From an uncultured Balneola sp. (lineage in GTDB: Bacteria > Bacteroidota > Rhodothermia > Balneolales > Balneolaceae): a DNA stretch of 64,000 nt. The DNA lies in contig CAJXQC010000009.1 of NCBI GenBank assembly GCA_913058495.1, positions 1 through 64,000 of the forward strand, in the 5' to 3' direction. Below the pieces are notes generated by a model. That model saw nothing but the letters and a program-made list of their open reading frames with translations, made no database searches and was not told where the DNA came from. The position numbers and the translations under genes are program-made. Below are positions 12,575 through 15,803 of this stretch, one piece after another (the first letter of the stretch is position 1; each line of letters begins with the position of its first letter).

Positions 12575-13672
12575 CTATTTCTTGAATGTAATAGTAAAAG
12601 TGGTGCCTTTATTGATAGTACTATCTACAGAAATTTTGCCGCCCATGTTTGTTATATGATTATGTACAAGGTAAAGCCCGACACCTTTACTGTCTTCGTG
12701 GTTATGAAACTTTTGGTTTAGCTCAAAAATCCTGTCAGCGTTTGCTTTGCTGTCAAAGCCGATACCATTATCATTGAACGTGAAGGTGACTTTATTGCTT
12801 TCTTCGACCGCTTTTATTGTAATAACTGCACTTCTTTCTGGATGCGCGTACTTAATTGAGTTTGTAAGCAGATTCAGTATTACACTCTTTAAATTACCTC
12901 GGTTAAAAGGAATGGATATATCCGGAGAAATGTCCGTTTTTATAACAGTCTTAGTTTCTCTGATCAACGCTTCAACTGAGTTTATAACTTCTTCAACCGT
13001 TTCACTTAGCTTATTAGTTGATACTGCAGAATAGGCTGAATTCTTTTTATTCAGAATATCCACATAATCATTCAAAGTGGCTTGAAGTTGGTCCGTTGCA
13101 GACTTCAGAATGTTTATAAACTCAAGAGTTTCTTCATCCTGGATCTTACTTAAATCCAATAAGCTAAAAACGGACATCAGATTGCTTACCGGTGTTCTAA
13201 GATCATGAGAAGTTGTGTAGGAAATGTTTTTCAGCTCTTTATTGATCTGAGTCAGATTTGTGATTAATTCATTTCGCTCTTCTTCTCTTTGTTTTGCCTG
13301 AGTGATATCTTTTGCCACGGCATAAACCACACCATATTGATCTACAGGAATTGAAGTCCATGAAAGCCAAACAGTTTCTCCGCTTTTGGTAAGATATCGA
13401 TTCTCGTATTTCTTAACCCCAAGCCCTTTTATGAGATTTGTTCTGTATTTCCAGGTGTGCTCCTGATCCAATGGGTGAATAAATGATTTTATAGACCGGG
13501 AATAAAGTTCCTCTTCTGAGAAACCCAGCACTCTGGTAACGGCAGGATTAACTTTTCTAAAAAAACCATCAAAACCTGCTATACAAAACAGATCGTTAGT
13601 GTCATTAAAAAAGGGTTCTAAGGGATAATCTGTTAACGTTTCTTCAGCTTTTGCTGTTTCTGCTTTACTCAT
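12575..13672 (-). CDS. PAS-domain sensor histidine kinase
   Basis: A 365-residue soluble histidine kinase. A PAS domain occupies about residues 22-130 (FFRKVNPAVTRVLGFSEEEL and the PAC part GVVYAVAKDITQAKQREE). The HisKA phosphoacceptor is H156 in YTTSHDLRTP. The HATPase domain shows the N box (LLTNSIKYAH), G1 (DNGIGFD) and G2 (KGVGLYL). There is no membrane segment, so it senses a cytoplasmic cue. No response regulator gene is adjacent, making it an orphan kinase. It is convergent with the S9 peptidase. Confidence 0.92.
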   Translation of the reverse strand: MSKAETAKAEETLTDYPLEPFFNDTNDLFCIAGFDGFFRKVNPAVTRVLGFSEEELYSRSIKSFIHPLDQEHTWKYRTNLIKGLGVKKYENRYLTKSGETVWLSWTSIPVDQYGVVYAVAKDITQAKQREEERNELITNLTQINKELKNISYTTSHDLRTPVSNLMSVFSLLDLSKIQDEETLEFINILKSATDQLQATLNDYVDILNKKNSAYSAVSTNKLSETVEEVINSVEALIRETKTVIKTDISPDISIPFNRGNLKSVILNLLTNSIKYAHPERSAVITIKAVEESNKVTFTFNDNGIGFDSKANADRIFELNQKFHNHEDSKGVGLYLVHNHITNMGGKISVDSTINKGTTFTITFKK

Positions 13673-13707: not shown

Positions 13708-14028
13708 TTATCCCCATCCAAAATAACTGAAGCAGATATATACGTATATTACAACTACTAATAGCGATATAAAATTACCGACAAGAAAATAATCGTTAGA
13801 TATCTTGGAATTTTTGTCCTCGTGTAATCTTGTGCCTATTTTCAACGCTCCAAAGGCGATGATCACGTGCGGGTAGCCTGCTAAAATTCCTACAGACAGA
13901 AATATTCTTTCCAACACGCCTTTACCAAACGATGCCCAGCTTGTATTTGAATGTCCCAGAATTACGTTGATCGAAATATTAGCGAACAATTCCATCACTA
14001 ACCAACCAACGAGCATATCTCCAATCAT
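13708..14028 (-). CDS. small membrane protein paired with the SatD-family gene
   Basis: A 106-residue protein with an ATG start only 2 bp downstream of the SatD-family gene's stop, so the two are almost certainly cotranscribed. Three hydrophobic segments are visible (about 5-25, 40-62, 80-102). I do not recognise the family. Coupling to SatD suggests it is the effector or partner regulated by that DNA-binding protein, but this is inference. Confidence 0.75.
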   Translation of the reverse strand: MIGDMLVGWLVMELFANISINVILGHSNTSWASFGKGVLERIFLSVGILAGYPHVIIAFGALKIGTRLHEDKNSKISNDYFLVGNFISLLVVVIYVYICFSYFGWG

Positions 14029-14030
14029 AG

Positions 14031-14669
14031 TTATTTGATATAAGTTTTGATGAAATCCTTTAGCAGATTATACTCATTGATCATCAAAGTTTTTCGTCTT
14101 TTCCAGATCTGATCGCGGTTTTTATCATGAAGTTCGCCCACTTCACTATTGTTGTCGTTTTTGATCATATCCAGGATCAAAGGATAATCTTCTTTTTTCC
14201 AGTTCAAGATGATCGTATCTAATACTTCAAATATCCTTGAAAGCTGCTCTGTTTGTTCTTTATTCTGAAGTTTAAATCGGAAACGCTTGCGATTTCTCTT
14301 TTTGGAAGAAAGCATTTTTCGGGCTTCGGTTAAACCTTTACCCATCATTTCATAGGCTATATCGGGATTTATTTCTGTTTCTATCTCGCCCAGTAGAAGC
14401 ACGTAATGAAGTTTAAAATCAGGTTCTGTTTTGAGTAATTCCTCTTCAAGATGAAAAAGCAGATCTATTCCGGTAGATACCGAGCTTAGTATTCCCTGAA
14501 ATTCATCCCCCAAGGTAATGGTAAGAGGAGAGAGGATGGCTTTACCGAACTTCTTGTTAGTACTTTCAACAAGTTCTTTCAGTCCTTTGCTGAGCACCTC
14601 TCCGTCATAATCAGAGCTGTTAACTACGTCTCCCATAAATATGGGATAGCTATGTTGTTTTTTAGGCAT
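14031..14669 (-). CDS. SatD family protein, probable autoregulator
   Basis: A 212-residue protein from the ATG at 14669 (a TTG at 14684 would add five residues but lies upstream of the likely transcription start). The N-terminal YPIFMGDVVNSS box and GDEFQGIL motif are typical of the SatD family. The C-terminal part (VGELHDKNRDQIWKRRKTL) fits the helix-turn-helix found at this position in the family. A small membrane protein gene follows after 2 bp. Two identical operators overlap its promoter, supporting autoregulation. Confidence 0.82.
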   Translation of the reverse strand: MPKKQHSYPIFMGDVVNSSDYDGEVLSKGLKELVESTNKKFGKAILSPLTITLGDEFQGILSSVSTGIDLLFHLEEELLKTEPDFKLHYVLLLGEIETEINPDIAYEMMGKGLTEARKMLSSKKRNRKRFRFKLQNKEQTEQLSRIFEVLDTIILNWKKEDYPLILDMIKNDNNSEVGELHDKNRDQIWKRRKTLMINEYNLLKDFIKTYIK

Positions 14670-14674
14670 GCTGT

Positions 14675-14710
14675 ATTGTATCAAAAAAAATGAAACAATG
14701 CAATATGTTT
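14675..14710 (-). promoter_or_regulatory. predicted promoter of satD with leaderless start
   Basis: Read on the minus strand, TACAAT (14675-14680) is a good -10 element, and TTGCAT lies 17 bp upstream as a weaker -35 (14698-14703). The expected transcription start falls at about 14668-14669, on the ATG itself, predicting a leaderless mRNA. One operator half-site sits inside the -35/-10 spacer. Confidence 0.5.
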
Positions 14711-14741
14711 CAATAAAAATGAAACAATAGGATTTGTTTCA
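14691..14741. promoter_or_regulatory. two identical palindromic operators upstream of satD
   Basis: Two perfect copies of TGAAACA-N8-TGTTTCA occur at 14691-14712 and 14720-14741, with a 29-bp period (just under three helical turns). The half-sites are exact in all four places while the 8-bp centres differ, which is the pattern of a dimer-binding site. The first copy overlaps the predicted promoter. The most likely ligand is the SatD-family protein encoded 22 bp away. Confidence 0.8.
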
Positions 14742-14757
14742 GTTGATAGTGGTAATG

Positions 14758-14783
14758 CGGCACAAGCGGACGCTTGCGCTAGG
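14758..14783. repeat. GC-rich REP-like hairpin
   Basis: A GC-rich island in an AT-rich spacer holds the palindrome CAAGCG-GA-CGCTTG with flanking GC(AC) and (GC)GC outer pairs and a CTAG-type end. It resembles the REP hairpins at 12.43 kb in having 6-bp arms, a GA centre and a CTAG flank. It lies between the operators and the end of the DUF4062 gene. Confidence 0.5.
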
Positions 14784-14789
14784 CTGGGT

Positions 14790-15794
14790 TTAAATTTTTG
14801 AGGCAGAGATAAATTCAAGTCCGAGTAGTAAGCTTTTTCTTTCTTTTGTACCAACTTGAACTTCTTCATTCACTTCAATCAAATTCTCACCACTAAAAGA
14901 AAATCTAACTGGGCTAGGATTTGGACGAAGAACTTTTTTTACTTCCCGTACTGGTTCTTCATAAAAGTAATTTCCCTGAATAGTTTTAGCTTTAATTAAA
15001 AAATCAGACTCGTATTCAAGATCAATCAATTCATCCGCTACATGATTTTCTGCAAATAAGTATTGAAATGGTCCAAAATACCCAATAAGGTTTTCGTCTA
15101 TGATGCTGAATTTTCTTTTAACAGTCGCACCATATGAGTAAGAGAAAGCCTCGCATTCTTTCCTATCTGCTCTTTCAAAATTCTTAAGCTTAGCACGAAA
15201 TGTTATTTCTGTATCATAATAAAGTTTTGGTAAGGCTTGAAATCGATTAATTGAAAAAAGTAAATCTTCATTATGTTCGGTTTGATTTTTTTCACCTATT
15301 TCAAATCCGTGCCTTGGTAGCTCATTTAAAAGAGACTGGACGACTTTATTAGATAAATCTTCTTTAGTACTAAAAAAGTCAATTGTATTATCATTTGAGA
15401 TTTTGTTTTTAAAATTCAATAATAATTCACTTTCACTTCCTTTAGAAATAAATTTTGGAGAAATGGGAGTGTTTTCATCCATAAAAAAAATAAATTTCGG
15501 TATTTTTAGATTACAAGCCTTTTCATATTCAAGCTCTACAAAAGATTTGTTTTTATCTTTTTCAATCGACCCATATCTCCACCCAACGAACATTAAAAAG
15601 ATATCTGACTTTTCTACTTCTTCTAAACAAGTTTCAATTGGTTTTTGATCTCTAGCTCCAAAAAATTCTTGCGCATTAATTATTCCTGCTTCATTTTTAA
15701 GTTTTTCAATCACAGCTGTTCTATAATCTTTGAGATCTAAATAAGTAGAACAGATAAAAAAATTAATATTGGAAAGTTTAGTCCTTCTAGTCAT
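14790..15794 (-). CDS. DUF4062 domain protein (TIR-like N-terminus)
   Basis: A 334-residue cytoplasmic protein. Residues about 7-115 match the DUF4062 fold: FFICSTYLDLKDYRTAVIEKL, EVEKSDIFLMFVGWRYG and the SFVELEYEKAC helix with conserved glutamates. This domain is related to TIR-like modules and is common in bacterial signalling and defence-type proteins. The C-terminal two thirds (about 170-334) are unrecognised and look beta-rich. Codons are strikingly A/T-rich compared with the flanking metabolic genes, so recent acquisition is possible. It sits between satD and the E1 gene, 9 bp from the latter's stop. Confidence 0.8.
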   Translation of the reverse strand: MTRRTKLSNINFFICSTYLDLKDYRTAVIEKLKNEAGIINAQEFFGARDQKPIETCLEEVEKSDIFLMFVGWRYGSIEKDKNKSFVELEYEKACNLKIPKFIFFMDENTPISPKFISKGSESELLLNFKNKISNDNTIDFFSTKEDLSNKVVQSLLNELPRHGFEIGEKNQTEHNEDLLFSINRFQALPKLYYDTEITFRAKLKNFERADRKECEAFSYSYGATVKRKFSIIDENLIGYFGPFQYLFAENHVADELIDLEYESDFLIKAKTIQGNYFYEEPVREVKKVLRPNPSPVRFSFSGENLIEVNEEVQVGTKERKSLLLGLEFISASKI

Positions 15795-15803
15795 GATAGA
15801 TGA

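Follow-up and report, generated by a model that had tools for sequence, protein, structure and literature searches.

The 64,000-nucleotide stretch of an uncultured Balneola sp. contig analysed here (the window) carries, directly upstream of the gene satD, a set of repeated palindromes, and raises the question of which protein reads them and to what effect. The gene lies on the minus strand at 14031-14669 (ATG at 14669-14667, stop at 14033-14031) and encodes 212 aa, with an N-terminal cyclase-like domain and a C-terminal helix-turn-helix (HTH). The original prediction described two exact TGAAACA-N8-TGTTTCA palindromes with different centres and proposed that satD is autoregulated through this identical pair of operators. 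We recovered both palindromes, one at 14691-14712 (centre ATGCAATA) and the other, 29 bp away, at 14720-14741 (centre ATAGGATT). The distance between the near edge of the pair and the first base of the satD start codon (A, 14669) is 21 nt. Based on a comparison of satD loci from many lineages, we consider it most likely that SatD is a one-component autoregulatory DNA-binding protein that represses satD and the adjoining membrane-protein gene by way of tandem inverted repeats.

Searching the 64-kb window for the N8 palindrome with up to three mismatches returned 12 other matches, each with three mismatches. Genome-wide there is one more exact copy, which we did not count as an operator: it sits within an HtrA-like coding region and is probably a chance occurrence.

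Read along the minus strand, the region contains five alternating half-sites in the arrangement H1-N8-H2-N7-H3-N8-H4-N7-H5. Their letters are TGAAACA, TGTTTCA, TGAAACA, TGTTTCA and TGATACA, separated in turn by aatcctat, tttttat, tattgcat and ttttttt and followed by ATACAGC and the ATG. The fifth half-site, H5 (TGTATCA on the plus strand, 14677-14683), had been overlooked; it overlaps the -10 box. In the window both phases, with 7-bp and with 8-bp centres, look palindromic. In the 7-bp phase, H2 and H3 make up a perfect distal operator (14706-14726, minus strand), which has no second exact N7 copy anywhere in the genome and is kept in relatives. H4 and H5 make up a proximal operator (TGTTTCA-N7-TGATACA, 14677-14697, minus strand), which occupies the promoter spacer and runs into the -10 box, and the centres of the two operators are 29 bp apart. 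H1 (14735-14741, minus strand) forms the outer edge of the conserved array: among near relatives the conservation starts exactly there and the DNA farther upstream varies between strains, so we take H1 to be still part of the element.

The promoter predicted for the minus strand, TTGCAT-N17-TACAAT, was likewise found as described. Its -35 box (TTGCAT, 14703-14698) sits between the two operators, 17 nt from the -10 box (TACAAT, 14680-14675), which is in turn 5 nt from the satD ATG. All 10 genomes with TACAAT, this one included, keep the N17 spacer and the 5-nt distance to the ATG, which supports a predicted transcript start at or beside the start codon and thus a leaderless mRNA. The satD genes of other lineages have longer leaders. 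In the class of satD genes represented by the window, the palindrome is centred at position 11-12 of the spacer of a TTG...-N17-TA... promoter (10 genomes), and the same position, 11-12, is occupied in a second class (9 genomes) which has AACC...GGTT operators and about 28% identity. These two classes have no half-site letters in common and the same promoter geometry.

We decided the phase of the array by cross-genus comparison because an automatic palindrome score, applied to some Balneola genomes, selects the N8 phase or a different register. From this comparison, the putative dimer site is most likely the TGTTTCA-N7-TGAAACA inverted repeat rather than its N8 counterpart. Relatives with fewer half-sites have mostly lost H1, leaving N7 pairs (G027, G020, G028 and G113), and G031 has one TGTTTCA-N7-TGAAACA site only. 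Furthermore, substitutions in G039, G040, G068 and G113 come in pairs that leave the N7 palindromes perfect (TGTATCA/TGATACA, TGATGCA/TGCATCA and TGTTGCA/TGCAACA); for example, the counterpart of the proximal operator in G039 and G040 is a perfect TGTATCA...TGATACA. It could be argued that the dimer unit is the N8 repeat and that H5 is kept only through its overlap with the -10 box, since both N8 pairs are near perfect in Balneola (6-7 of 7) and the conserved stretch begins at H1. Besides the patterns of loss and paired change, the N7 phase alone fits the spacer position seen in the AACC/GGTT class, and we find the N8 unit unlikely. Accordingly, the letters of the originally predicted operator pair stand, whereas the N8 repeat as dimer unit gives way to an N7 repeat favoured by the relatives, with one site inside the spacer. 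In G028, the satD homologue matches residues 1-104 only and has an internal stop, which points to an error in the assembly or to a gene disrupted not long ago; tandem N7 sites persist in its promoter.

The N7 sites also bear on the direction of regulation. With the -35 box between the two sites and the proximal site filling the spacer and overlapping the -10 box, bound SatD would be expected to exclude RNA polymerase and so to repress satD together with the membrane-protein gene. MerR-type regulators act from the promoter spacer, and with the sequence alone being silent on direction, SatD might instead activate its promoter or switch between activation and repression with a ligand. We regard this as not likely: in both main classes the spacer lies under an operator that extends to the -10 box, and three genomes (G041, G042 and G067) have an additional palindrome between the promoter and the start codon, two arrangements that look like occlusion.

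By sequence, the SatD of the window is a member of the SatD family PF16264 (57.1 bits against a curated cut-off of 29, E 2.5e-15). The C-terminal HTH that the original prediction ascribed to this family is borne out by HTH_23, Sigma70_r4 and other HTH models, which match several of 23 family members at 1e-5 to 1e-3. The window SatD aligns with the HTH regions of those members; no HTH Pfam model matched the window protein itself.

Across SatD subfamilies the operator letters differ, following the recognition helix of the HTH. Proteins with RDQIWKRR or RTQIWKRR are found with TGTTTCA/TGAAACA-type sites, and those with RSQIYRRR or RTQIYRRR with TGTTGCA or TGATGCA paired with TGCAACA or TGCATCA (G068 and G113; in G037, of the same QIYRRR group, the array is degenerate). 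Proteins with AFYKN or AVYKN are found with AACC/GGTT sites. Shared ancestry may explain part of this tracking. Because the letters of the sites change with the subfamily and its recognition helix, we favour SatD as its own regulator, probably a repressor.

The distribution of exact sites within the genus was also determined. Five same-genus genomes (G000, G001, G002, G004 and G005) have the exact N7 site once per genome, at satD, and G007 has the site only with one mismatch. The exact site is absent from G003 and G006, and a protein search found no satD in either of these two genomes. Rather improbable, accordingly, is the proposal that the palindromes are operators of another transcription factor which happens to control satD. 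In its favour, the binding protein is not one that can be named from DNA letters only, and the genome holds more one-mismatch sites, including one that precedes an ABC transporter gene. Nevertheless, a foreign regulator would need to shift its sites with the SatD subfamily and recognition helix at constant spacing, to lack exact sites in same-genus genomes without satD, and to travel with satD from Bacteroidota to haloarchaea.

We also considered a wider regulon and set it aside: beyond the satD pair, the genome has only three one-mismatch N7 sites, one of which recurs in relatives and is not tied to a promoter. Two one-mismatch sites (G000, C13:68864-68884 and C13:67373-67393) flank an ABC transporter ATPase gene. 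The site at C13:68864-68884 recurs in four relatives and may mark either another target or coding sequence that is conserved.

Next, we investigated how widely the array is conserved. Homologues of satD with 96-99% identity are present in Balneola sp. EhC07 and three Balneola-type MAGs, and the array is present in all near relatives. The palindromes are thus retained upstream of satD orthologues, a result that favours the idea of autoregulation, as does the finding of arrays upstream of most satD genes examined. In other Bacteroidota families with PF16264 matches the arrays are written in other letters, such as three copies of the ATCGGGTAATTAGCCGAT type, two of ATATGCAAAAAAGCATAT or two of TATAAG...CTTATA. 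A search of plasmid records additionally revealed satD in Sphingomonas, Agrobacterium, Vibrio lentus, Salinivibrio, Segatella, Fusobacterium and three haloarchaea. Seven of the eight plasmid records tested (Alpha- and Gammaproteobacteria and haloarchaea) have tandem palindromes with a period of 28 or 29 (p 0.005-0.015). Examples are TTAGCC-N6-GGCTAA in three copies in Vibrio, ACAACC-N6-GGTTGT in two copies in Natronosalvus, and TTCGCC...GGCGAA plus more copies in Halorientalis. A clear array was not seen upstream of satD in G208, G093, G132 and Segatella, and the satD upstream in the Fusobacterium record has no obvious array by eye. SatD was absent from a viral-contig scan and from a phage search.

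The tandem palindrome score of the window is 24 out of 24, compared to a best score of 19 among 200 dinucleotide shuffles. Against such shuffles, 30 of 46 satD upstreams reach p <=0.01, and with the period left free between 20 and 40 bp, 36 of the 46 score at least 20/24 and every one of these 36 peaks at 28 or 29 bp; the 46 contain near-identical strains and one duplicate, so that these counts overstate independence. The agreement in period across distant groups does not rest on the independence of the samples. Four of the 58 control upstreams proved to be satD promoter regions (alternative starts or divergent genes); with these removed, 1 of 54 controls reached p 0.01. While a site of gene turnover directly upstream of the array might suggest chance or mobile repeats devoid of a regulatory role, chance falls far short of producing the period, the promoter geometry and the occurrence in distant lineages, and the conservation data contradict it, leaving this explanation with a negligible likelihood.

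To what signal might SatD respond? When a profile of 23 SatD sequences was compared with class III nucleotide cyclases from this bacterial family, the two matched over SatD residues ~8-97 (P 3.9e-5, probability ~70-71%). The probability rises to 81% with the N-terminal part alone, and reversed-profile controls give at most 0.2%. D14 and G54-D55 are invariant in the 23 SatDs, and D14 and D55 align with the metal-binding aspartates of the cyclases. Sub-threshold PDB matches of the same profile fall on class III cyclases for the N-terminal part and on the HTHs of sigma region 4, LrpA and UPF0122 for the C-terminal part. SatD thus resembles the class III cyclases (PF00211; structures 1ybt and Ma1120) in this region and in both aspartates. 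It differs from them in its fused HTH and in the position of the transition-state (catalytic) Asn, which in our reading of the 23-sequence alignment is not conserved, making cyclase activity doubtful. PF00211 did not match the window SatD at E 1, nor does it appear in the list of 25 families obtained for the 23 members. We therefore describe the N-terminus as weakly cyclase-like, from a profile match below the usual certainty, and do not class it as a cyclase. GGDEF was considered as a relative of this domain, and a search of 19 genomes of the bacterial family yielded no GGDEF genes. Structure prediction of SatD (the window and four near-identical relatives) gave a mean pLDDT of 37, and we based no fold search on the model.

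The original prediction also paired the regulator with a membrane protein, and this pairing extends well beyond the window. In nearly all loci with downstream sequence available, the gene that follows satD encodes a membrane protein and overlaps or nearly touches satD; the order of the two genes is conserved and the genes on either side of the pair vary. In the window, the partner is a 106-aa protein (13708-14028, minus strand) that starts 2 nt past the satD stop. No Pfam family, including PF11750 (DUF3307), matches it above cut-off. Partners are of three kinds: proteins of ~104-113 aa as in the window, proteins of ~240-250 aa, and DUF3307 proteins, the latter accompanying satD in other Bacteroidota, Vibrio, Salinivibrio, Fusobacterium and haloarchaea. 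Common to the partners is a C-terminal module, GxLER...(A/L)K...R...(E/D)Y(F/V/I)L(V/I)GxxxS, which takes the form GxLER...ALK...R...DYFLxGxxxS in the window protein. Profile comparison links the short type to the 240-aa type (P 3.6e-7) and to the DUF3307 type (6.3e-6), and the 240-aa type to the DUF3307 type (1.3e-23), with a reversed control at 0.04. The Pfam DUF3307 model spans the N-terminal half only, and no Pfam model matched the C-terminal membrane module shared by the short and DUF3307-type partners. The window protein, which is without the N-terminal DUF3307 domain, consists mainly of this module and is homologous to the C-terminal part of both the DUF3307-type and the 240-aa partners.

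Other genes accompany the pair in Balneola. A PAS histidine kinase gene (12575-13672) follows 35 bp past the membrane-protein gene with no terminator predicted between them. It is found in five Balneola genomes and, because it is not beside satD in the other genera examined, we place it outside the core module. On the other side (14750-15800), five near-identical Balneola genomes carry different genes between a conserved dehydrogenase E1 gene and satD, encoding a DUF4062 protein, a methyltransferase-like protein, an XRE-type HTH protein with its partner, and others. This region is a hotspot of gene turnover, possibly involving defence genes.

From these features we infer the following circuit. 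SatD dimers would use the HTH at their C-terminus to contact tandem inverted repeats with a spacing of 28-29 bp; in the window these are the perfect site (14706-14726) and the near copy of it (14677-14697). Neighbouring dimers may touch and bind cooperatively, as suggested by a period that stays near-constant despite a total change of half-site letters. A nucleotide or metal-nucleotide signal at the N-terminal domain could control release, upon which the membrane protein, a putative effector, would be made. Such a signal is plausible because the domain resembles class III cyclases and keeps both metal-binding aspartates.

TetR/LacI-type autoregulated repressors have repeated inverted repeats over their own promoter. 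SatD is like them in this respect, and the type of circuit is known. SatD is unlike them in its combination of folds and in the 28-29 bp period, which is held while the recognised letters change completely. The SatD family takes its name from a Streptococcus mutans operon called sat, for secretion and acid tolerance (Kremer et al. 2001, as cited in PMC4408037). Our literature search returned no description of SatD as a DNA-binding autoregulator, of its operator or of a cyclase-like domain. Within the papers searched, there also seems to be no account of the family assignment, of a 28-29 bp geometry that stays fixed from bacteria to archaea, or of the domain that the partners share.

Our results give the poorly understood SatD family a testable function and a named DNA site for each lineage, and join DUF3307 and several unnamed small membrane proteins through one common domain. 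The cyclase-like domain makes the question of the SatD signal directly testable. More speculatively, SatD and its partner might form a widespread, so far unrecognised signalling module of bacteria and archaea, in which the cyclase-like domain would detect or synthesise a nucleotide and a cooperative SatD array on DNA would gate production of a stress- or defence-effector membrane protein with a new conserved domain. Finally, the many natural pairs of operator and recognition helix, all at a fixed geometry, provide a natural experiment on how DNA-binding specificity can shift without loss of the autoregulatory circuit.
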